Source of the DNA: a virus
IMG/VR virus record: IMGVR_UViG_3300042328_002052
Location: 1 to 57,886 of that record
DNA: 57,886 bases
Reading direction: 5' to 3' (one strand)
The notes beneath the pieces are model-generated. The model was not told the DNA's origin and did no database searches. It saw nothing but the letters and a program-made list of their open reading frames with translations. Below, piece by piece: positions 7,935 to 20,064 of this stretch. A program made the position numbers and the translations under genes. Numbering within the stretch: the stretch's first letter is position 1; each line of letters begins with the position of its first letter.

Positions 7935-8003
7935 CAATTGGGCACGGAAGTCTGGTGCGAAACTTCCTGAAATTTTTCCGTGCCCAATTGCTGACGGGGA
8001 GGC
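7922..8003. repeat. 28-bp perfect inverted repeat with divergent promoters
   Basis: Arms 7922-7949 and 7976-8003 are exact reverse complements, separated by 26 bases. Each arm carries the -35 (CTGACG) and flanking sequence of one of two divergent early promoters, so both share identical upstream control sequence. Confidence 0.9.
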
Positions 8004-8019
8004 ATCGGCGTGGTACAAT
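7991..8019 (+). promoter_or_regulatory. Early leaderless promoter
   Basis: CTGACG, 17-base spacer, TACAAT, six bases, ATG 8026. Confidence 0.8.
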
Positions 8020-8025
8020 ACGCCC

Positions 8026-8400
8026 ATGACCACCACCGACTACACCAAGCACATCACGCTCATCCGCCTCGCACACCCCACCAACCTCTCTGTGGTTGAG
8101 TTCGCCTACACCCCGCGCTACATGAGGTGGACGATGCTGAAGTACAACCCCGGCGAGGGGCAGACCGCATCGGATGCTTGGCTGCGTTACTGCGGCGACC
8201 CGATGTTCAAGCCCTCGCGGTTCGACAGCGTCAGCCACGGGGCTTCCGACCTGTACCACAACGACATCCTGAAGATCGTCGGCCACCTCGTCCTGAACGG
8301 GTGGAGCATCACGGAGAATCGCCCGTACACCGGGCCGAGCGGGTACTACGAGTGCAACGCTGCGAACGCAGCGGAGGCCGAAGACCTCGTCCTGTTCTGA
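8026..8400 (+). CDS. Early hypothetical protein (124 aa)
   Basis: The start at 8026 follows TACAAT by six bases; the frame is open farther upstream, but only through the inverted repeat and the antisense of the divergent gene. The protein is soluble, with several Tyr and Trp and a WLRYCGDPMFKPSRF stretch; no motif points to a function. A hairpin at 8409-8435 follows and runs into the next promoter. Confidence 0.65.
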   Translation: MTTTDYTKHITLIRLAHPTNLSVVEFAYTPRYMRWTMLKYNPGEGQTASDAWLRYCGDPMFKPSRFDSVSHGASDLYHNDILKIVGHLVLNGWSITENRPYTGPSGYYECNAANAAEAEDLVLF

Positions 8401-8408
8401 ACCCCACG

Positions 8409-8435
8409 GGGGGAGGGAAAATCTTTCCCTCCCCC
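8409..8435 (+). terminator. Hairpin abutting next -35 box
   Basis: GGGGGAGGGAAA(ATC)TTTCCCTCCCCC, 12 base pairs, directly followed by TTGACA of the next promoter. Probable terminator, without a long T run. Confidence 0.6.
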
Positions 8436-8464
8436 TTGACACCTCGCACCACCTACGGTACAAT
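8436..8464 (+). promoter_or_regulatory. Early leaderless promoter
   Basis: TTGACA, 17-base spacer, TACAAT, six bases, ATG 8471. Confidence 0.85.
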
Positions 8465-8470
8465 GCACGC

Positions 8471-8671
8471 ATGAGCACCACCTTCTACACCATCGTCCGC
8501 GCAACCATGTTCCTCAACGCCATCGTTGCCGCCTTCCTCGCGGGTGGTCTTGCAATGGCAGGTGATCTACTGCACTCCGTTTTCACGCTCGGAGCCTGCG
8601 CCGCCTCGGTTCTAATCCTGCATCTGGCAGGTGCAGCGGAGCGCGAGGAGTGCCCGGAGACCTCCCGCTAA
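8471..8671 (+). CDS. Early small membrane protein (66 aa)
   Basis: Two hydrophobic segments, about residues 7-30 (TIVRATMFLNAIVAAFLAGG) and 33-55, joined by a short polar turn, with a charged tail of Glu and Arg. This predicts a two-helix inner-membrane hairpin. It has its own leaderless promoter and no operon partner. Early phage membrane proteins of this size often act on the host envelope or exclude other phages, but nothing in the sequence specifies that. Confidence 0.6.
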   Translation: MSTTFYTIVRATMFLNAIVAAFLAGGLAMAGDLLHSVFTLGACAASVLILHLAGAAEREECPETSR

Positions 8672-8676
8672 AATAA

Positions 8677-8693
8677 TCAGGAGTAATTCCTGA
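8677..8693 (+). terminator. Short hairpin overlapping the next -35
   Basis: TCAGGA(GTAAT)TCCTGA; the last bases are part of CTGACA, the -35 of the next gene. Small; a possible terminator or operator. Confidence 0.4.
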
Positions 8694-8718
8694 CATCCCG
8701 CACCACCTACGGTACAAT
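8690..8718 (+). promoter_or_regulatory. Early leaderless promoter
   Basis: CTGACA, 17-base spacer nearly the same as the previous promoter, TACAAT, six bases, ATG 8725. Confidence 0.85.
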
Positions 8719-8724
8719 ACAGCC

Positions 8725-9012
8725 ATGAAGCGCACCACCATCGCTGACCTCGTCCTCTCCGTCCGCCACCTGAACTCCGCTATGGGGTTCTCCGATGATG
8801 CGGGAGCCGCCATCGGAGTGAACTCCGTCCCCGGTTCCTACTACCTGCAGGGAGCCTACGGAGGCTGGCAACTGCAGCGCGTTCACCCCTCGGGCGGTTG
8901 CGAGTCTGTGACCTCGGGCTACCGCTCCAAGCGCGAACTGAACGAACTGGTGAACGCGATCCGCTACGGCGTACTGGAGGGGACGGTACGCATGACCGGG
9001 CTAACGATCTAA
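8725..9012 (+). CDS. Early hypothetical protein (95 aa)
   Basis: Begins MKRTTIADLVLSVRHLNSAMG. The middle has a Gly/Tyr-rich beta pattern (SYYLQGAYGGWQLQRV) and the end is the helix SKRELNELVNAIRYGV. Small phage proteins with this helix-strand-helix layout are common and uncharacterised. Leaderless start. Repeat element A (9091-9144) follows. Confidence 0.65.
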   Translation: MKRTTIADLVLSVRHLNSAMGFSDDAGAAIGVNSVPGSYYLQGAYGGWQLQRVHPSGGCESVTSGYRSKRELNELVNAIRYGVLEGTVRMTGLTI

Positions 9013-9090
9013 CGAGGTGGTGCTCGTACCAGCCGAAGAGGATTCGTCCCTGCCCCGATTCGTTCGGGGCTAGGCTGTTTCTAGGGGGCA

Positions 9091-9144
9091 CTACTATCCG
9101 GGGGCCGATGGCCCCCGGACCTCCTCGCTTCGCTCGGATAGTAG
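9091..9144. repeat. CTACTATC hairpin element A
   Basis: CTACTATCC (9091-9099) and GGATAGTAG (9136-9144) ends enclose a GC-rich hairpin (GGGGGCC(GAT)GGCCCCC). It lies 93 bases before the ATG of the next early gene. One of six such elements in the GC-rich island. Confidence 0.8.
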
Positions 9145-9202
9145 TCCCAGCGGACGGCCCGAGGTCCGATAGAATTATTTCTAATATTCTCGCCGCCATT
9201 TA

Positions 9203-9231
9203 CTGATTCGCACGCCCCAGTCTGGTATAAT
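9203..9231 (+). promoter_or_regulatory. Early leaderless promoter
   Basis: CTGATT, 17-base spacer, TATAAT, six bases, ATG 9238; AT-rich sequence upstream of the -35 may act as an UP element. Confidence 0.8.
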
Positions 9232-9237
9232 GCGGGC

Positions 9238-9801
9238 ATGAACAGCACCACCGCCCACCGTTACCTCACCGTCCGCACCCGAGCCACCGAATCCTTCATC
9301 ACGCTCCTCGCGCAGGCTACGCTCTTCGACCTCCACGCTGCCGAGCGTTGGTACGATGAGGCGCAGGCGTTCGCTAACTCGCTGCGTCCGTCCACCGGAT
9401 GGAACATGGAAGTGGCGGCTAGCGTTGTCTCCGCGTTCTCGCCCCGCGTCACTTGGGCGCACAATAAGGCGAAGGCGGCGCAGTACGCGCAGGGGATCGC
9501 CCCGAAGGGTCTGCGCTCCCATGTGGTCGCGGCGGATCGCTGCGTGGCGGAAGGCTTCAACGGACTGCGCGGAGCAAAGACCAACGCATTCGCCCGTGCC
9601 ATCGCCGGGGATCCGAACGCGGTCGTGGTGGATGTGTGGATGTGCCGCGCTGCGGGACTGGGCAAGGACGCGCCGAACGCGACCGAATACCGTGCCATCG
9701 CGGACGCTATCCGCAGCATCGCGGCTACGCGGACGGTGAACATGGCACCCGCCACGCTGCAGGCTCTTCTGTGGATCATCGTTCGGGGCAAGGCGGACTA
9801 A
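9238..9801 (+). CDS. Helix-rich protein resembling phage DUF7178 / HhH-glycosylase-like family
   Basis: 187 residues. The order of motifs, ASVVSAFSPRVTWAHNKAKA, then a GAKTNAFARAIAGDP stretch and VVVDVWMCRAAGL, and a final PATLQALLWIIVRG, is the pattern I recall for a protein family common in actinobacterial phages (DUF7178-type) whose fold resembles helix-hairpin-helix DNA glycosylases; the Asp of VDVW could correspond to the catalytic Asp. This is recognition by memory, not a search. If right, it may act on DNA bases early in infection. Leaderless start six bases after TATAAT. Confidence 0.55.
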   Translation: MNSTTAHRYLTVRTRATESFITLLAQATLFDLHAAERWYDEAQAFANSLRPSTGWNMEVAASVVSAFSPRVTWAHNKAKAAQYAQGIAPKGLRSHVVAADRCVAEGFNGLRGAKTNAFARAIAGDPNAVVVDVWMCRAAGLGKDAPNATEYRAIADAIRSIAATRTVNMAPATLQALLWIIVRGKAD

Positions 9802-9859
9802 TGGGCGGATGGACGGGAAGGGGGCTGGCCCGAGAAGTTTGGGCCAGCTTTCCCTCGGG

Positions 9860-9926
9860 CTACTATCCGGAAGCCCACGGGCTTCCGGATTTTTTATGGA
9901 CTGGATGCCCCCTCGCCGGATAGTAG
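9860..9926. repeat. CTACTATC hairpin element B
   Basis: CTACTATCC and GGATAGTAG ends (9860-9868, 9918-9926) enclose CCGGAAGCCC(ACG)GGGCTTCCGG followed by ATTTTTT, a good rho-independent terminator for the gene ending at 9801. It lies 84 bases before the next ATG. Confidence 0.85.
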
Positions 9927-9976
9927 TCGGCCCCCCGGACGCCTCAAATATTTTAAAATAATCTCGTACCCAATTA

Positions 9977-10004
9977 GTGACTTCCCACGCCAGTCTGGTA
10001 TAAT
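9977..10004 (+). promoter_or_regulatory. Early leaderless promoter
   Basis: GTGACT, 16-base spacer, TATAAT, six bases, ATG 10011. Confidence 0.8.
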
Positions 10005-10010
10005 GCACGC

Positions 10011-10286
10011 ATGAGCACCCCCTCCTCCATCGTCCTTGACACCCCCGCACAGATCAACGCGCTCCGCGCCCACACCCTCCGCATCGGTCTGGAGTCCGAG
10101 ATCAAGCACAAGATGCGCCTGACCGGAAAGGCTCCTTCCTGCTACACGATCATCAAGCGGGAACTGGGCTTCAAGGGCAACAAGGTTCGCGTCTACGCCC
10201 AGTATGTGCTGTGGATGGGCGAGAAGGGTCTTCTGGACATCAGCCCTTCGGATCGGGCGACCCTGATGGCGTGGGCGGTGAAGTAA
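10011..10286 (+). CDS. Early hypothetical protein (91 aa)
   Basis: The core LRIGLESEIKHKMRLTG followed by CYTIIKRELGFKGNKVRV matches a small alpha-helical protein seen in many unrelated phages, where it has no assigned role. Basic enough to bind nucleic acid. Leaderless start. It is followed by a 12-base-pair hairpin (10298-10329) that abuts the next promoter. Confidence 0.65.
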   Translation: MSTPSSIVLDTPAQINALRAHTLRIGLESEIKHKMRLTGKAPSCYTIIKRELGFKGNKVRVYAQYVLWMGEKGLLDISPSDRATLMAWAVK

Positions 10287-10297
10287 CCCCCGGATCG

Positions 10298-10329
10298 GGG
10301 GGAGAGAATTGAAAAATATTCTCTCCCCC
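10298..10329 (+). terminator. Hairpin before next promoter
   Basis: GGGGGAGAGAAT and ATTCTCTCCCCC arms, 12 base pairs, followed by TTTACTGACA, so the following -35 starts four bases later. Confidence 0.6.
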
Positions 10330-10333
10330 TTTA

Positions 10334-10362
10334 CTGACAGACGCACCCGAACCCGGTATAAT
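10334..10362 (+). promoter_or_regulatory. Early leaderless promoter
   Basis: CTGACA, 17-base spacer, TATAAT, six bases, ATG 10369. Confidence 0.85.
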
Positions 10363-10368
10363 ACACCC

Positions 10369-10593
10369 ATGAGCACCACCAAGACCGCCAAGATGATCCC
10401 GAGCGGAGTTTCCGACCGCTACGCCTACGCCTACGGCTACCTCTCCGGCTGCATGAGGAATGTGGAGTACGCCGCGCAGCAGATCCGCCTCCGTGATGAC
10501 CCCGAGTGGGTCGCCTTGTGGGTGCAGGAAATCCGGCGCGAGATCGCCTCCTACAAGGCAATGGACGACGCCCTCCACAACGAACACGACTAA
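10369..10593 (+). CDS. Early hypothetical protein (74 aa)
   Basis: Small helical protein with Tyr- and Ala-rich start (VSDRYAYAYGYLSGCMRNVEY) and an acidic end. The start at 10369 is set by the -10 box six bases upstream. The next gene has no promoter of its own, so the two probably form one unit separated by a hairpin at 10607-10639. Confidence 0.6.
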   Translation: MSTTKTAKMIPSGVSDRYAYAYGYLSGCMRNVEYAAQQIRLRDDPEWVALWVQEIRREIASYKAMDDALHNEHD

Positions 10594-10606
10594 AAGGGTG
10601 GTGCTA

Positions 10607-10639
10607 GGGGGATGGAGGTAATGGGCTCCTCCATCCCCC
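10607..10639 (+). other. Intercistronic hairpin
   Basis: GGGGGATGGAGG and CCTCCATCCCCC, 12 base pairs with a nine-base loop, no T run. It sits between two genes that seem to share a transcript, so it may be an attenuator or mRNA-stabilising structure. Confidence 0.55.
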
Positions 10640-10669
10640 ACCCGACCCCCAACAAGAAAGAAAAAGAAA

Positions 10670-10960
10670 ATGGACGCCAAAGAATCACTCGCCAAACTCA
10701 TTCGCACCGCGCTCTCCAACGGGGAGACTGTGCGAGTCTCGTTCCTCAAGGTGGACGGTACGCTTGCCGTTGACCGTCAGATCACCCGCAACCTGATCGT
10801 CATTCCGAAGGACAAGCACCCGAAGTTTGTCCGTGGTGAGAACCCCGACTACATCACCGGGTTCGACATCAAGAAGGGCGACTGGATTCGCTTTCACAAG
10901 GACAATGTGCGCGGCTGCATGGAATTCAGCCGAGCCGCAGAAAACATGACTTTCGCGTGA
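10670..10960 (+). CDS. SH3-like barrel small protein (DUF2693-like)
   Basis: 96 residues. An N-terminal helix (ESLAKLIRTALSNGETVRV) leads into strands VSFLKVDGTLAVDRQITR and, near the end, FDIKKGDWIRFHKDNV. This follows the layout of the small SH3-like barrel proteins of T4-like phages (an F.K.DG strand early and a W+.F strand late). Role unknown. It has no leaderless promoter; the start is preceded by a purine-rich AAGAAAGAAAAAG tract, so it is an exception to the leaderless rule of this region. Confidence 0.65.
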   Translation: MDAKESLAKLIRTALSNGETVRVSFLKVDGTLAVDRQITRNLIVIPKDKHPKFVRGENPDYITGFDIKKGDWIRFHKDNVRGCMEFSRAAENMTFA

Positions 10961-10967
10961 GGAATTC

Positions 10968-10996
10968 CTGACACTCGCACCCCGATCCGGTACAAT
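10968..10996 (+). promoter_or_regulatory. Early leaderless promoter
   Basis: CTGACA, 17-base spacer, TACAAT, six bases, ATG 11003. Confidence 0.85.
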
Positions 10997-11002
10997 ACAC
11001 CC

Positions 11003-11359
11003 ATGAACAGCACCATCCCCCAACGCACTTCCGCCATCGTCACCCTCGTTGAGAACATCGGCATCTGCGCCACGACCATCGAACAGGTCAAGACCGACCC
11101 GGTTGAGATGAACTGCGCTCTCGCCTTCTGCGAGGTCGCCGTGAGCGTCCCCCCGGCTTGGTTCACCCCCGTTGAGCGTATGCTCATCGTGACCGTGATT
11201 CAGGCTCTCTACGGAGATCCGCGCAAGTTCATCGCAGAGTTGGACGAGGGAACCGTGTCCTTCTACCGCAAGGCTTCCGCCACGGTGGGGGGCGGTGAGG
11301 AACTTCCCACCGTTGTCACCCGGCTCTACCAACTCCATGTTCAGGAGTTCGGGGTCTAG
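11003..11359 (+). CDS. Early hypothetical protein (118 aa)
   Basis: Helical, weakly acidic, with a VSVPPAWFTPVERMLIVTVI central stretch. No membrane segment long enough to be sure and no motif I recognise. Leaderless start at 11003. Element C follows ten bases after the stop and carries a terminator-type hairpin. Confidence 0.6.
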   Translation: MNSTIPQRTSAIVTLVENIGICATTIEQVKTDPVEMNCALAFCEVAVSVPPAWFTPVERMLIVTVIQALYGDPRKFIAELDEGTVSFYRKASATVGGGEELPTVVTRLYQLHVQEFGV

Positions 11360-11368
11360 AACCACAAC

Positions 11369-11437
11369 TACTATCTGCGGCCCTCAGAGGGCCGCAGATT
11401 TTCTTGGAGACCACCGAGTTATGGGACCGGATAGTAG
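11369..11437. repeat. CTACTATC hairpin element C
   Basis: CTACTATC and GGATAGTAG ends enclose ATCTGCGGCCC(TCA)GAGGGCCGCAGAT with TTTCTT after it. It terminates the upstream gene and lies 77 bases before ATG 11515. Confidence 0.85.
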
Positions 11438-11480
11438 CTCGGACACCATCCAAAAAACCAAAATAAATCGCTCCTGATTA

Positions 11481-11508
11481 CTGACTTCCCGAAACCGTTG
11501 GATACAAT
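11481..11508 (+). promoter_or_regulatory. Early leaderless promoter
   Basis: CTGACT, 16-base spacer, TACAAT, six bases, ATG 11515. Confidence 0.8.
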
Positions 11509-11514
11509 ACGCGC

Positions 11515-11754
11515 ATGAGCAACGCCTACGACCCCAACTTCACCGACGACACCAACGATGCCGACCTCATGCCCTACGATGACACCTTCAGCGAGGAGGA
11601 CTATGTCGCTGAACTGATGGCAGAGGGCTACAGCCGTGAAGAAGCCAAGCGCATGGCAGGCGAGTACGAGTACGACGATGACGAGACTTGCTACGGTCAC
11701 GATGACCTTGACCGTGATGTTCCCGACTTCGTTGACCCGGAGGACTTCGAATGA
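11515..11754 (+). CDS. Early very acidic small protein (79 aa)
   Basis: Strongly acidic (many Asp and Glu; YEYDDDETCYGHDDLDRDV near the C-terminus), with a helix VAELMAEGYSREEAKRMAG in the middle. Acidic early phage proteins often mimic DNA to block nucleases or transcription factors, but that is only a charge argument. Its stop overlaps the ATG of the next gene (ATGA). Confidence 0.6.
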   Translation: MSNAYDPNFTDDTNDADLMPYDDTFSEEDYVAELMAEGYSREEAKRMAGEYEYDDDETCYGHDDLDRDVPDFVDPEDFE

Positions 11755-12071
11755 TCTACGCCAAGATCATTCGCCGGGACAAGCCCACCAAGAACTTCGG
11801 GTGGATGCGTAGGAGAGCCAAGCATACTCTTCAGAGCATTCACTTCGGAAGCCTGATGGTCTGTGTCGGACGAGCCGAATATCCGATGTCCTCCCTCAAG
11901 ATCATGGTGGACATTTCGGGTGATGGTTCCCTCATGGAGTTCCACCTCGCCTTCGGAGATGACTGGAAGAGCGAGGACATTCAGAGGTTCTTGGGCTACA
12001 TGAAAACATCAAAAAATGTGGTGAACGCATTTCTGACTTCCTCACCCGAACCGGATACAATACCCGCATGA
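11751..12071 (+). CDS. Early hypothetical protein (106 aa)
   Basis: Four-base overlap with the preceding acidic gene, so probably translated from the same leaderless message. Basic N-terminus (IIRRDKPTKNFGWMRRRAK), mixed core. The promoter of the next gene lies inside its 3' end. Function not recognised. Confidence 0.6.
   Translation: MIYAKIIRRDKPTKNFGWMRRRAKHTLQSIHFGSLMVCVGRAEYPMSSLKIMVDISGDGSLMEFHLAFGDDWKSEDIQRFLGYMKTSKNVVNAFLTSSPEPDTIPA
12033..12061 (+). promoter_or_regulatory. Early leaderless promoter inside an upstream gene
   Basis: CTGACT, 17-base spacer, TACAAT, six bases, ATG 12068. It lies within the last 40 bases of the preceding reading frame. Confidence 0.75.
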
Positions 12072-12304
12072 GCAAGCACCGCCCCGAAACCCCCACGACC
12101 TGCAACATCAGCGATCTCATCAACGAGATTGCCAAGTTCGTCAATGCCAACCCCCTGTGGGCAGAGGATGATTCCGCGATGAGCCGTCTTGCGATGGCTT
12201 ACAGCATCCTCGCCTCCATGAGCAGCCCGCAGATGGTGACTGACGAGGAGTACGAGTTCATCATCGACATTCACACCACCATCAAAGAGAGGATTCAGGG
12301 ATGA
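12068..12304 (+). CDS. Early hypothetical protein (78 aa)
   Basis: Small helical protein. It overlaps the previous gene by four bases yet has its own promoter with the -10 six bases before ATG 12068. It also overlaps the next gene by four bases (ATGA), giving a compact two-gene unit. No known motif. Confidence 0.6.
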   Translation: MSKHRPETPTTCNISDLINEIAKFVNANPLWAEDDSAMSRLAMAYSILASMSSPQMVTDEEYEFIIDIHTTIKERIQG

Positions 12305-12660
12305 GCGACAACAACTTTGAAGGGTTCTTTGAGAACCCGAACCACCCGCAGATCGCCAAGCATGAGCCGTCCCCGCAGCAGATGGTTGAGGCTTTGGCGG
12401 TTATGTGCAGCCAAGTCCACGACTGGTACACCAAGCCCATCATGCGAATGATGGCGCACGGTGTCTCGCAGAAGATCGGCAACAGCCTTCAGGATTCGGT
12501 TCTTCGTGGCGAGCGTCCTGACTTTCACCCCGGTTGGGCAGCGTTCCTGATGCTGATTCAGGAGCGGCTGATGACCTCCTACGACAAGTACGCTGACGAA
12601 ACGGAGCGCGAGATGTACCCGTTCGACAGCAGTTCCGAGATGGATCACCCGGCTGACTAA
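12301..12660 (+). CDS. Early hypothetical protein (119 aa)
   Basis: Helical, Met- and His-containing protein with an acidic tail, coupled to the gene before it by ATGA overlap. No motif I recognise. It is followed by the small hairpin TCAGAAA(TCA)TTTCTGA, whose 3' arm is part of the next -35. Confidence 0.6.
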   Translation: MSDNNFEGFFENPNHPQIAKHEPSPQQMVEALAVMCSQVHDWYTKPIMRMMAHGVSQKIGNSLQDSVLRGERPDFHPGWAAFLMLIQERLMTSYDKYADETEREMYPFDSSSEMDHPAD

Positions 12661-12663
12661 AAA

Positions 12664-12680
12664 TCAGAAATCATTTCTGA
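12664..12680 (+). terminator. Hairpin overlapping next -35
   Basis: TCAGAAA(TCA)TTTCTGA; the final CTGA forms the first four bases of the -35 box CTGACA. Confidence 0.4.
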
Positions 12681-12705
12681 CAAGCCGAGTCCCCCCGGTT
12701 ATAAT
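12677..12705 (+). promoter_or_regulatory. Early promoter with a leader
   Basis: CTGACA, 17-base spacer, TATAAT, then 18 bases including GAGAAGGAGA, a good Shine-Dalgarno, before ATG 12724. It contrasts with the leaderless promoters around it. Confidence 0.8.
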
Positions 12706-12723
12706 AGGGAGAAGGAGACAGCC

Positions 12724-13233
12724 ATGCCAAACTGGTGCAGCAACAAGATCACGATTCGCGCAGGTGCGGAGACTCGCAAGAAGATCAAGAATCTTCTGTT
12801 GGGAACGGAATACTACCGCCCCTTCAATGTGGTGGAGAAGACTCCCCTGACGAGCAACGAGACTCTGTTCTCGTTTCACAATGTGATCCCGCAGCCCGAC
12901 TGCATCCTTGACCCGGAAGATCCCCGGCGCAAGAGCGACATTCCCCAGAGTGATCCGAAGGGAGCCATGCCGGAGTGGTACTCATGGCGAGTCAACAACT
13001 GGGGAACCAAGTGGTCTGTGTCCGAAGTCCACATGAGCGAGACTGACACCTCCCTCACCTACTGGTTTGAGACTGCATGGGCTCCCCCGGAACCCGTCAT
13101 TCGCAGGTTGTCGGAGATGTTCCCGAACGCCTACATCATCCTCTCGTTTGACGAGCCGGGATGCTTGGGCAAGGGAGCGACCCACTACAAGGACGGTGAA
13201 GTTGTGAAGGAAACCGGAGTGGGTGTTTCCTGA
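12724..13233 (+). CDS. Api92-like / DUF1281 family protein
   Basis: 169 residues. The N-terminus MPNWCSNKITI and the C-terminal TYWFETAWAPPEPVIRRLS pattern mark the phage and plasmid family with a ferredoxin-like fold related to Api92 (DUF1281). Members are abundant in mobile elements; their role is not established. It is one of the few early genes here with a Shine-Dalgarno leader, so it may be translated in a different regime from its neighbours. Confidence 0.75.
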   Translation: MPNWCSNKITIRAGAETRKKIKNLLLGTEYYRPFNVVEKTPLTSNETLFSFHNVIPQPDCILDPEDPRRKSDIPQSDPKGAMPEWYSWRVNNWGTKWSVSEVHMSETDTSLTYWFETAWAPPEPVIRRLSEMFPNAYIILSFDEPGCLGKGATHYKDGEVVKETGVGVS

Positions 13234-13258
13234 CAAACCCGCGCCCATCGGGTATAAT
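13230..13258 (+). promoter_or_regulatory. Strong sigma70 promoter for RNA operon
   Basis: CTGACA, 17-base spacer, TATAAT. It overlaps the stop of the preceding gene. Downstream lies no reading frame but a structured RNA and tRNA-Lys. Confidence 0.85.
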
Positions 13259-13265
13259 GGGCAAA

Positions 13266-13421
13266 GCCAATGAGCCTAACCGTAATTCCAGTTGGCGTCC
13301 ATAGGACAATGCTTCCCGCAAGGGAGAAACTGGTAGGCGCGGCGAATAGCAGTCAAGTCCCGACTGCCGTATGCAAAGGGTATGCGGGTGGGAACCCGGC
13401 TTCAACAGGGTTCCCAAATTC
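13266..13421 (+). ncRNA. Structured RNA upstream of tRNA-Lys
   Basis: About 155 bases with many helices visible by eye: GCCTA and CCAGTT (13274-13278, 13288-13293) pair with the contiguous AACTGG-TAGGC (13328-13338) around the hairpin GTCC-ATA-GGAC. Then GGCGAAT (13341-13347) can pair with ATTCGCC (13418-13424), closing three hairpins: GCAGTC/GACTGC (13349-13367), CGTATGC/GTATGCG with two wobbles (13368-13386) and GGGAACCC/GGGTTCCC (13390-13415). This four-way junction is cloverleaf-like but lacks a T-loop and anticodon features. The last three bases of the closing stem belong to tRNA-Lys. No known RNA family recognised. Confidence 0.65.
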
Positions 13422-13493
13422 GCCTTCGTAGCGCAATGGTAGCGCAGTAGACTTTTAATCTATTGGTTGTGGGTTCAAGTCCCGCCGGAGGCA
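13422..13493 (+). tRNA. tRNA-Lys (TTT)
   Basis: Acceptor GCCTTCG/CGGAGGC, anticodon loop CTTTTAA with anticodon TTT, T-arm GTGGG-TTCAAGT-CCCGC. No encoded CCA. Reads AAA/AAG, frequent in the AT-rich late genes. Confidence 0.95.
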
Positions 13494-13495
13494 TT

Positions 13496-13765
13496 ATGAC
13501 AAACGAAGAGACCATCGAACTTCTCACTGGCGCTTGCCAAGCCTACGACAGACTCTCCATCGTGATGGACCAGATGATGGAGTACTGGTTGGAGGGGCAT
13601 GCGAATCCTCCGAAGGAACTGATCAATGCCTACTACGACGCGAAGGATGACGTAGGCGAACACATCAACACGGGCAGGATCCATGAGATGATCGTCCCAC
13701 GGAATGGCGAATTCTATGAAAAAATAGAATCGCAGTTTGGACTTGACAGGCGACCAAACCTGTGA
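13496..13765 (+). CDS. Hypothetical protein between tRNAs (89 aa)
   Basis: Starts at ATG 13496, two bases after tRNA-Lys; the frame is open farther up but only through the tRNA. No Shine-Dalgarno is possible outside the tRNA 3' end, so translation must follow processing of the tRNA or be leaderless after cleavage. The protein is helical (EETIELLTGACQAYDRLSIV) and acidic. The promoter for the next tRNA overlaps its 3' end. Function unknown. Confidence 0.55.
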   Translation: MTNEETIELLTGACQAYDRLSIVMDQMMEYWLEGHANPPKELINAYYDAKDDVGEHINTGRIHEMIVPRNGEFYEKIESQFGLDRRPNL

Positions 13766-13771
13766 TAGAAT
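13743..13771 (+). promoter_or_regulatory. tRNA promoter
   Basis: TTGACA, 17-base spacer, TAGAAT, nine bases before the CAA tRNA. It overlaps the end of the preceding gene. Confidence 0.8.
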
Positions 13772-13780
13772 CCGATTCAC

Positions 13781-13853
13781 GGCATCGTAGACCAACGGCA
13801 GAGTCAGTTGACTCAAAATCAACAAAGTGTGGGTTCGAATCCCACCGATGCTA
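13781..13853 (+). tRNA. tRNA with CAA anticodon, class I shape (Leu?)
   Basis: Acceptor GGCATCG/CGATGCT (first pair G-T), anticodon stem GTTGA/TCAAC with loop CTCAAAA, T-arm GTGGG-TTCGAAT-CCCAC, discriminator A. The anticodon CAA would read Leu UUG, but the variable loop is only five bases, whereas bacterial tRNA-Leu has a long variable arm. The D-stem is weak (three pairs). Identity is therefore uncertain. Confidence 0.8.
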
Positions 13854-13860
13854 TTAGAGA

Positions 13861-13934
13861 GTTCCCGTAGCCCAGCAGGATAGAGCAGCCGCCTTCTAAG
13901 CGGCAGGTCGTTGGTTCGAATCCAACCGGGAACG
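13861..13934 (+). tRNA. tRNA-Arg (TCT)
   Basis: Acceptor GTTCCCG/CGGGAAC, anticodon loop CTTCTAA, T-loop TTCGAAT, discriminator G. Reads AGA/AGG. It lies seven bases after the CAA tRNA, probably on the same transcript. Confidence 0.95.
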
Positions 13935-13935
13935 C

Positions 13936-13963
13936 TTGACAAGAAAGGAATAGGTGCTACAAT
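13936..13963 (+). promoter_or_regulatory. Promoter for second structured RNA and tRNA-Ile
   Basis: TTGACA, 16-base spacer, TACAAT, directly after tRNA-Arg. The next reading frame is far away; an RNA product is implied. Confidence 0.8.
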
Positions 13964-13969
13964 GTGAAC

Positions 13970-14072
13970 CAAGATGATTATATTATAAAAGAGTTTGGTG
14001 GTTTCCGAAGAAACCACACAGAGGCATTCTGTGAATGCACGGTTGGGAACTAGCCGTAAGATTAGCCAATAC
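13970..14072 (+). ncRNA. Second structured RNA, upstream of tRNA-Ile
   Basis: About 100 bases with three successive hairpins: GTGGTTTC-CGAA-GAAACCAC (13998-14017), GCATTC-TGT-GAATGC (14024-14038) and ACGGTT-(GGGAACT)-AGCCGT (14039-14057). The second and third are directly adjacent. It has its own promoter and no convincing reading frame. It could be a processed small RNA or a tRNA leader. Confidence 0.5.
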
Positions 14073-14148
14073 GGAAGGGTGGCTGAATCGTAGTTAGAGC
14101 GCATGCCTTATAAGCGTGAATATGTGGGTGCAACTCCCGCCCCTTCCA
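14073..14148 (+). tRNA. tRNA-Ile (TAT)
   Basis: Acceptor GGAAGGG/CCCTTCC, anticodon stem CATGC/GCGTG with loop CTTATAA, giving TAT, reading the AUA codon directly. The T-loop is TGCAACT instead of TTCGAAT, with T-stem GTGGG/CCCGC. Discriminator A, no encoded CCA. Confidence 0.85.
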
Positions 14149-14195
14149 CTCATTGTACATAGGAGCCTTCCCGCTACTGGGCTCCTAGTTCCCTA

Positions 14196-14230
14196 GAGCC
14201 CTCGCGCAAGCGAGGGCTCTGTTCTTTCTT
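14196..14230 (+). terminator. Terminator of tRNA cluster
   Basis: AGAGCCCTCGC(GCAA)GCGAGGGCTCT followed by GTTCTTTCTTT. A smaller hairpin AGGAGCC/GGCTCCT precedes it. Confidence 0.9.
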
Positions 14231-14234
14231 TGAG

Positions 14235-14302
14235 CTACTATCAAAAATTGCCGCTTAAAGCAATTTTTGAGGATTGGGGGATATTATTATTCCGGATAGT
14301 AG
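14235..14302. repeat. CTACTATC hairpin element D
   Basis: CTACTATC and GGATAGTAG ends enclose TCAAAAATTGC/GCAATTTTTGA. It lies 93 bases before ATG 14396. AT-rich tracts follow it and precede the -35 (CCTCAAAAATATTTC). Confidence 0.8.
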
Positions 14303-14360
14303 CCCGGACAGGACGGCTTATCGGCCCTCAAAAATATTTCAAAATATTCGCCACCAATTT

Positions 14361-14388
14361 TTGACTTCCCAAAAGTTTCTGTTACAAT
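14361..14388 (+). promoter_or_regulatory. Early leaderless promoter
   Basis: TTGACT, 16-base spacer, TACAAT, seven bases, ATG 14396. Confidence 0.8.
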
Positions 14389-14395
14389 GTTCTCC

Positions 14396-15736
14396 ATGAA
14401 CAGCATCGACACTCGCAAGCAGAACTTTCTCAACGCACTCACCCGCGTAGCAGGTAAGCCCTTCAGCATTGGTGATGCAGTCTACAGTCGCCGTGACTGC
14501 CTGACTGCTCTCTCCTCCTCCCTCTCACGGGGCGAGGATTGCTACAAGGTTCTCCCTGCTTGGCTCACCCAAGACCCGACTCGCCGTGCTGATCGGGGAC
14601 ACTACAAGATCCCGGAGATGGTCTCCGTGGAAATCACCCTGACCGACACCGAAGAAAAGATTGAAAACTCTCACGAAGATTTCGTGACTTCCGGTTCCGC
14701 TTCTGATACAATCACCGACATGAACAGCAACACCTACAACCTCACCATGCCGTCCCCGTCCGACCTGAACCTCGTCCCCGTCAAGAACGACACTTTCGTT
14801 CCGTGGGGTCACTACGAGGACATCAGCACGATCCTCGCCTCCAAGCAGTTCGCTCCCGTCTACATCACGGGCATGAGCGGCAACGGCAAGACCACCATGA
14901 TCGAACAGGTCTGCGCCAACAGCGGACGGGAACTCGTCCGCGTCAACATCACCGCCGAAACGGACGAGGACGATCTGCTTGGCGGGTTCCGCCTCATCAA
15001 CGGCGAAACGAAGTTCGTGTTCGGCGGCGTGATTCAGGCGATGCAGCGGGGCGCGATCCTGCTGCTTGACGAGATCGACCTCGGGACGGAGCGCATGATG
15101 TGCCTTCAGCCCGTGCTTGAGGGCAAGGGCGTGTTCCTCAAGAAGATCGGTCTGTATGTCAAGCCCGCTCCCGGCTTCAATGTGGTGGCGACTGCCAACA
15201 CGAAGGGCAAGGGCGAGTCTGATCGGTTCGTGGGTACGCGCTGCCTGAACGAAGCCTACCTTGACCGCTTCTCCTACTGGTTTGAGCAGGACTACGCGGA
15301 CAAGACCGTGGAGGCTCGTATCATCATCCGCAAGATGAAGGCGTTTGGGCGGGAGGACAAGGATTTCGCGCAGTACCTCGTCAAGTGGGCGGAAACGATC
15401 CGCATGGGCTTCAAGGCGGGTGGCTACGATGACATTCTCACGACCCGCCGCTTGGAGGAGATTTGCAAGGCGTTCGCCATCTTCAACAACAAGGAGAAGG
15501 CGATCAAGTTGACGCTCACCCGGTTCGATTCGGCAACGCAGGAGGCGTTCTACAACCTCTACACCAAGATCGACCCGACCATGCTCCCGACCCCGGAGGG
15601 GATGAAGGAGGAGCCGAATCCCTCCGTCGAAGCCGCCAAGCGAGAGATCGACGCGATCCTCAACGACATCGGCACGACCATCCCGGTGAACAACAGCAAC
15701 ACCGTGACCCCGACCACCTACGCAGTTCACGCCTAA
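14396..15736 (+). CDS. MoxR/CobS-like AAA+ ATPase
   Basis: 446 residues from ATG 14396. The AAA+ core has Walker A GMSGNGKTT (about 159-167), the ETDEDDLLGGF segment typical of CobS/MoxR proteins, Walker B ILLLDEID (221-228) and sensor ATANT (265-269). The first 108 residues form a separate domain plus acidic linker. Proteins of this kind are called CobS in marine phages, but the fold is that of a MoxR chaperone working with a VWA partner; such a partner lies at 16205. A second promoter inside the gene would start a 338-residue form at ATG 14720 that lacks the N-terminal domain but keeps the whole ATPase. Confidence 0.85.
   Translation: MNSIDTRKQNFLNALTRVAGKPFSIGDAVYSRRDCLTALSSSLSRGEDCYKVLPAWLTQDPTRRADRGHYKIPEMVSVEITLTDTEEKIENSHEDFVTSGSASDTITDMNSNTYNLTMPSPSDLNLVPVKNDTFVPWGHYEDISTILASKQFAPVYITGMSGNGKTTMIEQVCANSGRELVRVNITAETDEDDLLGGFRLINGETKFVFGGVIQAMQRGAILLLDEIDLGTERMMCLQPVLEGKGVFLKKIGLYVKPAPGFNVVATANTKGKGESDRFVGTRCLNEAYLDRFSYWFEQDYADKTVEARIIIRKMKAFGREDKDFAQYLVKWAETIRMGFKAGGYDDILTTRRLEEICKAFAIFNNKEKAIKLTLTRFDSATQEAFYNLYTKIDPTMLPTPEGMKEEPNPSVEAAKREIDAILNDIGTTIPVNNSNTVTPTTYAVHA
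14684..14712 (+). promoter_or_regulatory. Internal in-frame leaderless promoter
   Basis: GTGACT-TCC, 17-base spacer, TACAAT, seven bases, in-frame ATG 14720 within the AAA+ gene. It shares the TGACTTCC string with other early promoters. Confidence 0.65.
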
Positions 15737-15760
15737 CCAAGAAAGAGAAATAAAAAGAAA

Positions 15761-15982
15761 ATGCCATACCTCAACAAGCGCAATCGTTTCGTCCAAGCCG
15801 CCAAGCATTTCGCGGAAGTCCACAACCGCCCCACCGACTGCTTCACGAAGGCTGACCTTCTTGATGTTGCCAAGTCGATCAACATGAAGGGCATTCCGAC
15901 TTGGGTGCTGAAGGACTACGGCAGCGCAGTCAGCAGAGGGGTCTATGACCTGACCTCGCTCATCAAGCCCGTCACCGTCTGA
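15761..15982 (+). CDS. Small winged-helix-like protein (73 aa)
   Basis: Lies between the AAA+ and VWA genes, 24 bases after the former, with a purine-rich AAGAAAGAGAAATAAAAAG tract before ATG 15761, so it is likely co-transcribed with the ATPase. The pattern TKADLLDVAKSINMKGIPTW followed by VLKDYGSAVSRGVYDL suggests a helix-turn-helix or winged-helix fold. Because of its position it could be an adaptor or regulator of the ATPase/VWA pair (inference only). Confidence 0.6.
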   Translation: MPYLNKRNRFVQAAKHFAEVHNRPTDCFTKADLLDVAKSINMKGIPTWVLKDYGSAVSRGVYDLTSLIKPVTV

Positions 15983-16033
15983 TGCTGTTCATGCCCCGCC
16001 CCCCATTCGGGGGGCGGGGCAGCTGATGGCGGA

Positions 16034-16106
16034 CTACTATCCGAGGCCCCCTTAAGGGCCGAGGACTCGGAGAACTTTATTATTATTTCAGGACGGCGGA
16101 TAGTAG
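16034..16106. repeat. CTACTATC hairpin element E
   Basis: CTACTATCC and GGATAGTAG ends (16034-16042, 16098-16106) enclose GGCCC(CCTTAA)GGGCC and CCGAG/CTCGG pairings, then TTTATTATTATTT. It lies 98 bases before ATG 16205. Confidence 0.8.
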
Positions 16107-16170
16107 TCTGGACGGCCCCGCACGCTTACCGGACCCCCACAAAAAATCGAAAGTTTCTCTCTCCCAATTA

Positions 16171-16198
16171 CTGACTTCCACGCAGACTGTGGTACAAT
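16171..16198 (+). promoter_or_regulatory. Early leaderless promoter
   Basis: CTGACT, 16-base spacer, TACAAT, six bases, ATG 16205. Confidence 0.85.
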
Positions 16199-16204
16199 AC
16201 TGCC

Positions 16205-18358
16205 ATGACCAACTCTCTCTCCATCTTTGCCAACGCCCTTGCCTCCGAGAACCTGTCCTTCTCGTTCGATCAGAACGCGGAGACTGCCTCGTTCGATACC
16301 AAGACGCGCCACCTGACGATGCCCATTTGGGATGTGTCGGAAACGGTGCAGACCATGCTGATCGCCCATGAGATCAGCCACGCCCTGTGGACTCCCTACG
16401 AGCGCAGCGAGGAGTTGCTTGCTGCTGCGGAGCAGGAGGGCTTCAACAAGATGCTCCTTCAGCGGATCGCCAACATGGTGGAGGATGTCCGCATTGAGAA
16501 GATGATGAAGGCGAAGTACCCCGGTACGCGCCGCGACTTCTACTTGGGCTACAAGGAGATCGTGGATCGGGATATGTTCTCTTTCTCCAAGATGGACATT
16601 TCCAAGAGCGGGATCATCAACCGCCTGAACCTCCACTTCAAGTGGGGCGTTCCCGGCTTCCTCGCCGTCAACCTCTCCCCGGAGGAGCAGAAGATCGCGG
16701 ACATGGTGGATGCCGTCAAGACTTTTGAGGAAACCATCGAAGTCGCCAAGTTCCTCTACCGTCACCCGGAGATGCAGGAGGCTATGAAGAAGGTGGAGAT
16801 GCCCGGTGATCCCAACGGGCAGCAGGAGGGCGATCCTGCGGACGGCATCCTCATGGACACCGACATCAAGGGCGGTGGCAAGGAGAAGGACGGGGACACC
16901 TACACCTCCTCCGTCATCACCCTCACCGGGCTGAAGGACTACCGCAAGGCGATCATCAGCACCGATATGCTGCGTGATTCGTTCACCTCCGCGAACCCCT
17001 ACTACCTTGAGGCTTCCCTGACCAAGTACCGGGAGTATGTGCGCCAGTCCGATGCGTTCGTGCGCCAGTTGGTCGCGCAGTTTGAGCGCAAGAAGGCTGC
17101 GGACGAGATCCGCCGGGAGCGTCCCAAGCAGACCGGGATGCTGAACCTTGACCGTCTGCACCAGTACCGCACCCATGACGATATCTTCCTGTCGAAGATC
17201 GTCAAGAAGGACGGCAAGAACCACGGCATCGTGTTCCTGCTTGACTTCAGCGGGTCGATGCAGAGCAGCATCGAAAATTGTTTCCTTCAGGTTCTCCAGT
17301 TGGTGTGGTTCTGCGAGAAGGCGAAGATCCCGTTCGATGTGTTCGGCTTCACCGATGTTCACGGCTACGCCATGTACGGGGATGCGTTCTACAAGTCCTA
17401 CCACGACTTCCACAACAACCCCGCCAACGAGGGCAAGCAGTTCATTCACCCCTTGCAGCCGGAAGTCGCTCGTTCCTGCCCGACCGGGATTCTGTACGAG
17501 AACGCCCGTCTGATCCACCTCGCGTCATCGAAGGACGATGCGAAGAAGCGGGAGCAGTTGCTCTCCATGCTCTACGGGTCGCTCGTTTCTGCCGACCTCC
17601 CCGGCTCCAACCTCCTCACGCTGCACGGCACTCCGACCGTGGAAGCCCTCGCCATTGCCACCGAATACATGAAGGATTGGGTCACGGAGAACAACATTCA
17701 GATCCCGACCCTCATGGTGGTCACGGACGGTGCGCCCAACGGAGTCACCGTCAAGGACGCAGAGACTTCCAACCTCTACCGCTACTGCTCCAACAGCACG
17801 ATCACGGTGGTCAACGAGATGCTTGGCACGGTGGAGCGCGTCCATACGATGGACACCCCCGGACTCTGCATCGGCAACATGGTCATCAGCACCATGCTCA
17901 ACAGCCTCCGCGCCAAGTTGAACGCCCGGTGCATCGGGATGTATGTGGGCGGTCATCGGATGAACGATCAGACCTTCATGGGCTTCTGCATGAGCCACAA
18001 GGAGCGCGAGGACTTCTACGGCGATCACCGCAACCACCGTGTCGAAGTGTCCGACCTCCCCCGGTACGCTGCTGCGGAGGAGGCGTACAAGGACGGCTGC
18101 GTGATGGTTCACCCGGACATCTTCCCCGGCTACGACTCCTACTTCCTCACCAAGACCCCGAAGATCGTCAAGGACGAGGATGCCATTGCGGACGGTGGAA
18201 CCTTCACCAAGATCAAGAACACCTTCATCAAGACGATGGCGAAGCGCAGCGGGAATCGCGTGTTCCTCACCCGGTATGTGGATATCGTGGCGGGTCAGCC
18301 CGTGAAGAAGATGATCGACTCCATGTACGGGGTCGCCCTCTCCTTCCCGAAGAAGTAA
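16205..18358 (+). CDS. CobT/VWA-like protein with HExxH motif
   Basis: 717 residues. The N-terminal part has AHEISHALW with HExxH at about 55-59 and a following VEDVRIE helix (about 92-98) that could give the third zinc ligand, as in gluzincin-type peptidases and in CobT-like proteins. A low-complexity acidic stretch (about 200-235) leads to a VWA domain with the MIDAS motif DFSGS (about 347-351), and TLMVVTDGAPNG near 505 fits the later metal-site strand. It is the natural partner of the AAA+ protein at 14396 (MoxR-VWA type machine). Leaderless start. The substrate is unknown; B12 metabolism is the textbook role of CobS/CobT but not shown for phages. Confidence 0.8.
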   Translation: MTNSLSIFANALASENLSFSFDQNAETASFDTKTRHLTMPIWDVSETVQTMLIAHEISHALWTPYERSEELLAAAEQEGFNKMLLQRIANMVEDVRIEKMMKAKYPGTRRDFYLGYKEIVDRDMFSFSKMDISKSGIINRLNLHFKWGVPGFLAVNLSPEEQKIADMVDAVKTFEETIEVAKFLYRHPEMQEAMKKVEMPGDPNGQQEGDPADGILMDTDIKGGGKEKDGDTYTSSVITLTGLKDYRKAIISTDMLRDSFTSANPYYLEASLTKYREYVRQSDAFVRQLVAQFERKKAADEIRRERPKQTGMLNLDRLHQYRTHDDIFLSKIVKKDGKNHGIVFLLDFSGSMQSSIENCFLQVLQLVWFCEKAKIPFDVFGFTDVHGYAMYGDAFYKSYHDFHNNPANEGKQFIHPLQPEVARSCPTGILYENARLIHLASSKDDAKKREQLLSMLYGSLVSADLPGSNLLTLHGTPTVEALAIATEYMKDWVTENNIQIPTLMVVTDGAPNGVTVKDAETSNLYRYCSNSTITVVNEMLGTVERVHTMDTPGLCIGNMVISTMLNSLRAKLNARCIGMYVGGHRMNDQTFMGFCMSHKEREDFYGDHRNHRVEVSDLPRYAAAEEAYKDGCVMVHPDIFPGYDSYFLTKTPKIVKDEDAIADGGTFTKIKNTFIKTMAKRSGNRVFLTRYVDIVAGQPVKKMIDSMYGVALSFPKK

Positions 18359-18373
18359 AAGATTCTTTGCATA

Positions 18374-18411
18374 GTTCCCCCGGACTGGAAGGAGAGAGCC
18401 AGTCCGGGGGC
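18374..18411 (+). terminator. Terminator after VWA gene
   Basis: CCCCCGGACTGG and CCAGTCCGGGGG, a 12-base-pair stem, followed by CTATGTCTTT. It lies 15 bases after the stop. Confidence 0.75.
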
Positions 18412-18423
18412 TATGTCTTTGAG

Positions 18424-18489
18424 CTACTATCAGAGAATTTGGTGTTTTTCCAAATTCTCTGATTTTATTTGAGGGGCGGCGGATAGTAG
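18424..18489. repeat. CTACTATC hairpin element F
   Basis: CTACTATC and GGATAGTAG ends enclose TCAGAGAATTTG/CAAATTCTCTGA with TTTTATTT after it. It is followed by an AT-rich CCTCAAAAATTTTTC tract like that after element D. Confidence 0.8.
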
Positions 18490-18592
18490 TTCGGACGGGA
18501 CGCGGGCCAGACCCCCTCAAAAATTTTTCAAAATCTTTCAAAGTATTTGCTGACTTCCCCAGAATTACTTCTGGGACTTGTGGTCGCATTGC

Positions 18593-18620
18593 TGGACAAC
18601 CCCCATATCTAGGCTATACT
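18593..18620 (+). promoter_or_regulatory. Probable early promoter
   Basis: TGGACA, 16-base spacer, TATACT. An ATG follows directly at 18621 and another 12 bases on at 18633; the latter fits the expected transcription start better. Confidence 0.5.
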
Positions 18621-18632
18621 ATGGGACTGTTC

Positions 18633-18944
18633 ATGCGACCGATAACCCCCTCGTCCATGTTGGGTGTCTACCATAATCTTCGCAGGGATTATAGGACGGG
18701 GGGTTATCGGGCGTTACTTGTGGGTCTTTTGATTATGGGGCTCTGCCTTATCGGGCTATACTACGGTCTCATAAACTTTACAAAAATTTGTAATAATATT
18801 GGCGGACAGGATCCAGCTGGACAGGACCCAGAAACTTTAAATAAAATTGAGAGCTACTATCCGGGGGAGCTGGAGGGGGGTCTTCTGGGAATGTTGCGGA
18901 TGGCACGCAGACCCCCTCAGAGCTCTGGACGGGATGTAGAATGA
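18633..18944 (+). CDS. Single-pass membrane protein (103 aa)
   Basis: A basic N-terminal region is followed by a clear hydrophobic helix (ALLVGLLIMGLCLIGLYYGL, about residues 31-50) and a polar, Gly/Pro-rich tail. I chose ATG 18633; ATG 18621 is in frame but touches the -10 box. The tail is encoded partly by a half copy of the CTACTATCC element (18852-18860) and by repeated GGACAGGA strings, so it may be a young or drifting gene. It overlaps the next small gene by ATGA. Confidence 0.5.
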   Translation: MRPITPSSMLGVYHNLRRDYRTGGYRALLVGLLIMGLCLIGLYYGLINFTKICNNIGGQDPAGQDPETLNKIESYYPGELEGGLLGMLRMARRPPQSSGRDVE

Positions 18945-19072
18945 CGGACAGGAAGAAAAATTATAAATTGTCGGACAGGATACGCAAAGCCTATGAGAAT
19001 GTCGTTCGAAAGTACGGACGAGCTCTGGAAAGGCTAGCTAGAGGGGATGAGAGACCCCCTAGGCACAAATAA
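18941..19072 (+). CDS. Small basic protein (43 aa)
   Basis: Read by hand. ATGA overlap with the membrane protein gene. Very basic: MTDRKKNYKLSDRIRKAYEN followed by VVRKYGRALERLARG, a predicted amphipathic helix rich in Arg and Lys that could bind RNA or DNA. No family recognised. Confidence 0.5.
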   Translation: MTDRKKNYKLSDRIRKAYENVVRKYGRALERLARGDERPPRHK

Positions 19073-19314
19073 TTGTCAAAATTCTCAAAAATTTGTCAAA
19101 ATTTATAAGTATTTGCTTGACAGCCTAGGATCGTTTATAGGCTCTTTGTCGTTTAGAGGCCCGGGGAGGGCTAAAAGACGTTCGGACGGCTCCTAGGGGG
19201 TGGGAAATACGATTAAATGGGGTTATATGAGGGGTCTCTAACTCAATCTTTCTCAAATATTCTTAAAAATTTTCTACCCCACTCGCTCCCACTCTCCCCC
19301 ACATTTACCCCCCA
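19073..19314. other. Non-coding stretch
   Basis: No gene seen. It holds AT-rich tracts (TCAAAATTCTCAAAAATTTG), an inverted repeat AGCCTA/TAGGCT next to a TTGACA at about 19123 without a convincing -10, and a pyrimidine-rich stretch on the plus strand up to the convergent gene. GC content drops here, marking the right edge of the GC-rich island. Confidence 0.5.
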
Positions 19315-19467
19315 TCACTTCACTACCTGATTAGCACTCTCCTCTTGTCTTTCATCCTCTGTATCAGTTACTTCTTCTGAGTCTACTTCGGGTTCTGCCT
19401 TCTTGAATCCCATAGGCTTGTCAATGTAAACATCATAACTTTCTAAAAATTCTTTGAAATTTTTCAT
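19315..19467 (-). CDS. Small acidic protein with capsid-targeting-like N-terminus (50 aa)
   Basis: Read by hand. It starts MKNFKEFLESYDVY, the same Lys-x-Phe-Lys-x-Phe-Leu-x-Glu pattern as the protein at 5296, then becomes very acidic (EVDSEEVTDTEDERQEE). It overlaps the methyltransferase gene by ATGA, so both come from the late promoter at 20015-20022. A short acidic peptide carrying the tag alone resembles the small core or internal peptides of T4-like heads (inference). Confidence 0.6.
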   Translation of the reverse strand: MKNFKEFLESYDVYIDKPMGFKKAEPEVDSEEVTDTEDERQEESANQVVK

Positions 19468-20009: not shown

Positions 20010-20014
20010 CAATC

Positions 20015-20022
20015 TATTTAGG
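20015..20022 (-). promoter_or_regulatory. T4-like late promoter (CCTAAATA)
   Basis: Minus-strand CCTAAATA, five bases before ATG 20009: leaderless late geometry. Confidence 0.7.
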
Positions 20023-20030
20023 GTTGTTGC

Positions 20031-20058: not shown

Positions 20059-20064
20059 GTGGGT

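Follow-up and report, generated by a model that had tools for sequence, protein, structure and literature searches.

Probable boundary elements in an early gene region

Six intergenic elements, in each of which an asymmetric site flanks a palindrome on both sides in inverted orientation, were found in the window, by which we mean the whole analysed stretch of DNA (57,886 nucleotides, the 57.9-kb IMG/VR record IMGVR_UViG_3300042328_002052 of an uncultured phage, apparently a fragment). Our analysis suggests that these elements may well be boundary cassettes of the early transcription units in a T4-related phage group. This is the best-supported reading of their anatomy, positional conservation and sequence rules, from which we infer a binding protein, insulation and shut-off. 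Each element lies between the end of a gene, usually with a hairpin of its own, and an A-rich tract with a sigma70-like promoter, and in about half of the elements the palindrome resembles a second intrinsic terminator. The full order is gene end, a separate terminator-like hairpin (T1), CTACTA, a palindrome TC..GA, usually a T-rich spacer, GATAGTAG, the A-rich tract, the promoter and ATG, with promoters and terminators called by consensus match only.

All six elements listed in the original prediction are present on the plus strand, each of the form CTACTATC...GATAGTAG and 54-73 bp long; five of the positions were exact, and the third element starts at 11368, not 11369. Element 1 (9091-9144), before the DUF7178 gene, has its left arm at 9091-9098, its palindrome TC..GA at 9097-9119 and its right arm at 9137-9144. 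For element 2 (9860-9926) the left arm is at 9860-9867, the palindrome at 9866-9889, followed by TTTTTT, and the right arm at 9919-9926. Element 3 (11368-11437), before a small acidic gene, combines arms at 11368-11375 and 11430-11437 with a palindrome at 11374-11398 that runs into TTTTC. Before the AAA/CobS-like gene lies element 4 (14235-14302, with arms at 14235-14242 and 14295-14302), whose palindrome at 14241-14270 is followed by GGAT. Element 5 (16034-16106), before the VWA/CobT-like gene, has arms at 16034-16041 and 16099-16106 around a bulged hairpin, an imperfect palindrome, at about 16040-16072. The last one, element 6 (18424-18489), precedes an open reading frame (ORF) for a small membrane protein and has its left arm at 18424-18431, a palindrome at 18430-18462 followed by TTTTATTT, and its right arm at 18482-18489. 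The expected distance of 77-143 bases from the elements to the next ATG holds, and the T runs ascribed to several inner hairpins directly follow the inner stem in three of the six (9860, 11368 and 18424).

The repeated ends are far from chance. CTACTATC occurs 14 times on both strands of the window, whereas 100 dinucleotide shuffles give 0.66 copies on average and never more than 3. Other 8-mers of the window reach three such inverted pairs at most, and the ones that do are the same motif displaced by 1-2 bases.

Conservation among related phages

We retrieved 15 relatives (L038-L052) through the VWA protein, independently of the motif, because a motif-based retrieval would find only what the motif finds. 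The elements recur in them at the same six boundaries, i.e. before the DUF7178 gene, g2, the small acidic gene, the AAA gene and the VWA gene, and after the VWA gene, and the orthologous loci are occupied nearly everywhere the contigs reach. The inverted pairs that the original prediction had suggested looking for at the same loci in relatives are thus there. Altogether 68 elements were gathered by exact arms, a procedure that could have missed more divergent arms; a search of the same contigs with up to two arm mismatches added only single-hairpin forms in L041. The significance values given below take pairs and loci as independent despite the kinship among the phages, which is closest for L041/L052 and L044/L051.

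The departures are few. Loci 1-3 of L041 carry the single-hairpin forms, with one mutated arm each, and L040 has a lone right arm at one boundary. L047 has no left arms and carries tandem right arms at three boundaries (5424-5447, 8240-8270 and 12339-12374 of that contig), where the sites come with mini-palindromes CTACTGATAGTAG and GTACTGATAGTAC. A direct-repeat search of viral contigs for L047-like phages gave 75 stretches, and outside open frames only the L047 contig had the layout of hairpin, site and promoter.

When viral contigs were scanned for the inverted pair, further contigs turned up with several copies in the setting of a hairpin followed by a promoter, and single copies elsewhere look like chance. 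Seven of the first 17 pattern matches (L005, L006, L009, L014, L015, L017 and L019) lack the hairpin and promoter context and were taken as chance. Over whole records, the motif outside the elements is at about chance level.

The arms as probable recognition sites

Both arms are copies of one extended asymmetric site, KGATAGTAGY (consensus CCKGATAGTAGYYC), where K is T or G and Y is C or T. The base inside GATAGTAG follows K in 135 of the 136 arms of the 68 elements, the exception being one left arm in the window, and the base outside it follows Y in equally many (135/136). Within a phage, the left and right arm flanks are not coupled, and no compensatory change in both arms was found among the elements examined, including those from the searches allowing mismatches. 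The arms therefore do not behave like the two sides of a stem under selection.

We found that the K base tends to be set by the phage. The right-arm K is uniform in 15 of the 16 phages, where shuffles give 12.1 mixed phages on average and at least 7, and left arms follow the K type of their own phage (14/20 vs 1/43, P=1e-8). The VWA tree joins the window phage and L038 as sisters with full support, and at none of their shared loci do the two have the same K base; this looks like a recognition site being retuned in concert. Taken together with the lone or tandem right arms of two relatives, the arm sequences favour a site in DNA that is recognised by a protein rather than a stem formed in RNA. 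The proposal of a recognised end sequence or a pair of regulator sites gains from these data, with arms near-invariant in relatives collected without the motif, the same rule of K and Y on both and a K switch specific to the phage.

An RNA-level element, in which a read-through transcript would pair CUACUAUC with GAUAGUAG into a long stem that is cut or bound by a double-strand RNase or another RNA-binding factor, seems doubtful to us. Double-strand RNase acts at early intergenic sites of T7. All six window elements do fold strongly as single strands (z -3.2 to -5.0), the outer arms pair wholly or partly in the minimum-energy structure of five of them, GGAY motifs in and near the elements show a strong strand bias, and in five phages a lone GATAGTAG lies just before tRNA-Glu, where transcription would include it. 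However, a double-strand RNase would need no invariant sequence with a K/Y rule, and the near-invariant arms lack both compensatory change and coupled flanks. In addition, the promoter comes only after the right arm, and L047 (in tandem, three loci) and L040 (once) retain right arms that have no left partner. An RNA-processing signal, also raised in the original prediction, is disfavoured as the principal explanation on these grounds, and an RNA stem built by the arms was rejected as a candidate.

The interior palindrome

The palindrome TC..GA spans 21-33 bp, mostly 23-27 bp. Its stem adjoins the left arm in 63 of the 68 elements and the right arm in two, so that the element is directional; the right arm mostly lies 15-33 bases beyond the stem. 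The inner hairpins had been described as non-conserved, which is true between loci, but the interiors of the same locus are often recognisably homologous in close relatives. Unconserved ends around conserved hairpins, the pattern that the original prediction had named as refuting it, are the opposite of what we observed.

The interior is built differently from an ordinary terminator hairpin. None of the 728 internal pairs in 62 elements is a G-U pair, as compared with 39 of 594 in the T1 hairpins of the same phages (P=1e-14) and 33 of 231 in other hairpins with T runs on the same contigs. Even the loop itself is palindromic in 33 of 46 cases with three or four loop bases, where 25% would be expected, as against 1 of 17 in T1, whose loops are e.g. 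GCAA and GAAA. In orthologous stems both sides differ at 1257 compared positions and one side at 13, though these counts cover all phage pairs, which are not independent events, and the stem finder demands unbroken pairing.

Interiors can differ even between close relatives. L041 and L052, with VWA genes 96% identical, differ in their interiors at loci 1-3, and L044 and L051 (98.7% identical) differ at locus 5 by a stem tip that has been replaced. Two loci of L041 carry near-identical interiors (38/39 bases), which shows copying between loci. Two-sided changes in stems are a known outcome of template switching between inverted-repeat arms (PMC8794818, PMC8604942), and the interior pattern is as expected from templated arm-copying or from a role at the DNA level. 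Template switching leaves the different behaviour of the T1 hairpins unexplained, and a role of the palindrome in DNA is the alternative.

The interior of element 5 (window 16034-16106, and locus 5 of L038, L042, L043 and L045) is conserved in sequence (GGGCCGAGGACTCG.AGAACTTTATTATT) and bulged, unlike the free palindromes elsewhere.

Recombination, termination and mobility

According to PMC4503421, the promoter early stem-loops (PeSLs) of T4-superfamily phages combine a stem-loop or terminator with an early promoter between early modules. By consensus, stem-loop or terminator-like and promoter-like sequences lie between genes here too, and the elements may work like PeSLs; we do not claim membership. 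Compared by that description, the stem-loop here differs in being bracketed by two almost invariant asymmetric sites, in being free in sequence but strictly palindromic, and in its fixed loci. We regard it as unlikely that the elements are PeSL-like recombination cassettes, i.e. a terminator and a promoter at module borders, kept since short ends and structure promote the exchange of early modules. The relationship to T4-type phages, the terminator-promoter layout, the position at block borders, a gene-order change inside one block (g3/g4 swapped) and the L041 interiors would all suit such cassettes. But the elements keep to the same six loci in all phages, and ends of 8 bp are too short for general homologous recombination. 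The AAA and VWA trees flanking element 5 also show no clear conflict, with approximately unbiased (AU) test p values of 0.33-0.57 for two VWA-like groupings on the AAA data and a marginal 0.048 for one.

It is highly unlikely that the elements are double terminators only, with the arms as part of the terminator and the ends kept alike by concerted copying among the six loci, with no separate reader. Two serial hairpins do stand at most boundaries, at least five T occur within the next nine bases after 34 of 63 stems, and L041 has copied between loci. Left unexplained are the near-invariant right arm so far past the stem, the survival of lone right arms, the K/Y rule and the fixed arms beside wholly different interiors.

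A miniature mobile or invertible element with recognised ends (MITE-like, REP/RAYT-like or flipped by a recombinase) is scarcely credible, since the short inverted ends, the hairpin interior, the copying in L041 and the differing interiors of L041 and L052 are set against fixed loci and orientation, no movement to new sites and no recombinase tied to the element. The candidates were rejected accordingly, REP/RAYT and MITE for the lack of dispersed insertion and an invertible terminator for the lack of both orientations. Of the small mobile insulator in the original prediction, the insulator-like place, a terminator before a promoter, stands; ongoing mobility is not supported, as divergent phages keep the same six boundaries and orientation. 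The one phage with near-identical interiors at two loci shows copying between loci.

A model for the proposed boundary cassettes

As early-unit boundary cassettes, the elements could work as follows. A sequence-specific DNA-binding protein of the phage or the host would read KGATAGTAGY on double-stranded DNA, and the bound sites together with the terminator would separate neighbouring early units, acting as a roadblock or as insulation against read-through into the next promoter. Timed shut-off of a unit is a possible additional effect. Palindromy may be all that counts in the interior, so that its sequence could turn over freely, and the arms of the palindrome would be kept identical through template switching during replication.

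Several observations weigh against the boundary cassettes. No protein that reads the site was identified. L047 lacks an element before its VWA gene, so the cassette is not essential there. The distance from the right arm to the -35 is highly variable (20-168 bases), leaving no fixed contact geometry with RNA polymerase. With a T tail at just 34 of 63 stems, termination is doubtful at loci 4 and 5, which mostly lack the tail. The K switching could also come from copying between loci, which L041 shows to occur. Considered separately as a candidate reader, the WYL_2-like gene g3 is absent in L047 and weak in L040, but several of the short contigs that carry elements gave no g3 match either, so that its distribution points neither way.

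We tentatively suggest a bolder form of the model, which we consider improbable at present. A dedicated DNA-binding protein would read the asymmetric KGATAGTAGY in inverted pairs around a sequence-free, strictly Watson-Crick palindrome that acts as a DNA structure (a cruciform or a single-strand hairpin) and not merely as a terminator. Each early unit would then be marked off by a boundary of DNA structure, and the recognition base of these boundaries would be adjusted across the whole genome in the course of phage divergence. If true, this would be a new class of phage regulatory element.

The early transcription layout of uncultured T4-related phages is little known, and the cassettes offer a precise and testable signal, made up of six shared loci, a site of ten bases and one retunable base for which all loci switch together. 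By the same signal, members of the group can be recognised in metagenomes. The palindrome of free sequence resembles a natural archive of how template switching edits phage genomes, and it helps to distinguish whether an RNA terminator is under selection or whether copying or selection acts on the DNA.

Comparison with known systems

The group carrying the elements is uncultured and unclassified, and its genes show it to be T4-related. The helicase of the window phage is 53-59% identical to gp41 of T4-like cyanophages, and the AAA/CobS-like and VWA/CobT-like genes lie near one another in a cyanophage-like arrangement; a gp41-like helicase and a CobS/CobT-like pair are the features by which we place it in the T4 superfamily. 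Megablast of the element region and tblastn of one late protein (47463-49241) found no match in INPHARED. CTACTATC is absent from the corresponding regions of Pelagibacter phage HTVC008M and Synechococcus phage S-B05, and a search of Rfam at the gathering score over window 8000-24500 returned tRNAs only, with no family match to the elements. We found no description of the element in the literature searched.

Along with the PeSLs, the closest analogues are the ESAS of cluster K mycobacteriophages, in which inverted repeats around a spacer that varies precede certain genes and go with gene families across phages; one or two of their positions differ by subcluster (PMC3203893, PMC12699233). The elements resemble them in this pattern but fail the defining measures of ESAS. 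ESAS repeats are imperfect and 17 bp long, with spacers mostly of 4-13 bp, and mostly lie beside the start-associated sequence GGGATAGGAGCCC, whereas the elements have arms of 8-10 bp, 44-102 bp overall, an inner palindrome and an adjoining promoter, not a start site.

L5-type stoperators, which belong to cluster A mycobacteriophages, are short asymmetric sites. They have a role in transcription regulation (PMC3203893). Their sequence differs from that of the arms, which are paired in inverted orientation on either side of a palindrome, and the rest of the genome shows no enrichment of single sites. The class I intergenic repeats of halovirus HF2 lie between early and middle genes and keep their place and orientation among relatives (PMC8707807), but they include the promoter, which here is outside the repeat. 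In inverted repeats maintained by template switching, the arms are homogenised and the spacer is inverted, which accounts for perfect palindromes in which both sides change at once (PMC8794818, PMC8604942). This is a mutation mechanism and not a functional element, and here it would act beside arms that are constant in most copies.

Promoters, spacers and neighbouring features

T1, a hairpin of at least 7 bp upstream, is present at 61 of the 68 elements. All on the plus strand, the T1 hairpins of the window are at 9052-9070 (element 1; terminator-like and separate), 9820-9852 (element 2), 14194-14221 (element 4, with a T-rich tail), 15992-16021 (element 5) and 18377-18410 (element 6, with a 10-nt loop AAGGAGAGAG that is kept in relatives).

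Promoter-like sequences follow on the same strand, i.e. CTGATT-17-TATAAT at 9203-9231 after element 1, GTGACT-16-TATAAT at 9977-10004 after element 2, CTGACT-16-TACAAT at 11481-11508 after element 3, TTGACT-16-TACAAT at 14361-14388 after element 4, CTGACT-16-TACAAT at 16171-16198 after element 5, and TGGACA-16-TATACT at 18593-18620 after element 6. The gene after element 4 likely starts at codon 14396, not at the ORF start 14387. The -35 of type TGACTTCC that had been described for these promoters is found after four of the six elements (9860, 11368, 14235 and 16034); the first has TGATTCG, and the sixth fails, as its TGACTTCC at about 18551 has no correctly spaced -10 and TGGACA-16-TATACT is the better promoter. 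An activator working at a fixed distance was ruled out, since the spacing from the right arm to the -35 is not constant. In a few related contigs (L061, L065, L077 and L086), TTCTACACA(C/G)ACTCC stands in place of the -35 region of these early promoters at several loci, accompanied by an extended -10, which suggests a concerted switch of promoter class.

The spacer between the palindrome and the right arm carries GGAC motifs. Between the right arm and the promoter, GGAC/GGAT is strongly strand-biased, with 161 forward and 20 reverse occurrences as compared with 32 in shuffles; the spacers scored were 9145-9203, 9927-9976, 11438-11480, 14303-14360, 16107-16170 and 18490-18592 of the window and their counterparts in L038-L052. 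TTAYNGGAC occurs in 32 of 67 spacers and in 16 of 67 element interiors, nearly always on the coding strand.

Two half copies had been noted outside the six elements. The one placed at 18852 is CTACTATC at 18854-18861 on the plus strand, within the ORF at 18621-18944, where the residues read SYYPG; it is coding, stands outside the element system and was ruled out as a regulatory site. The one placed at 23393 is real, a single right-arm-type site GATAGTAG at 23394-23401 on the plus strand, intergenic between the stop codon at 23391 and tRNA-Glu at 23411. The same placement is found in four relatives (L038, L042, L045 and L047), and the site is absent in nine other relatives with tRNA-Glu.

The early-gene block at 8001-18500 of the window stands out in base composition, with about 54-62% guanine plus cytosine (GC) over the 8-18.5 kb region against about 40% elsewhere in the genome, and the matching early regions in relatives likewise have 53-61% GC. 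The ORF at 18621-18944 is small and membrane-protein-like, with a repeated GQDP stretch and a frame kept in several relatives, and its likely start is 18633 because the first ATG comes directly after the -10.

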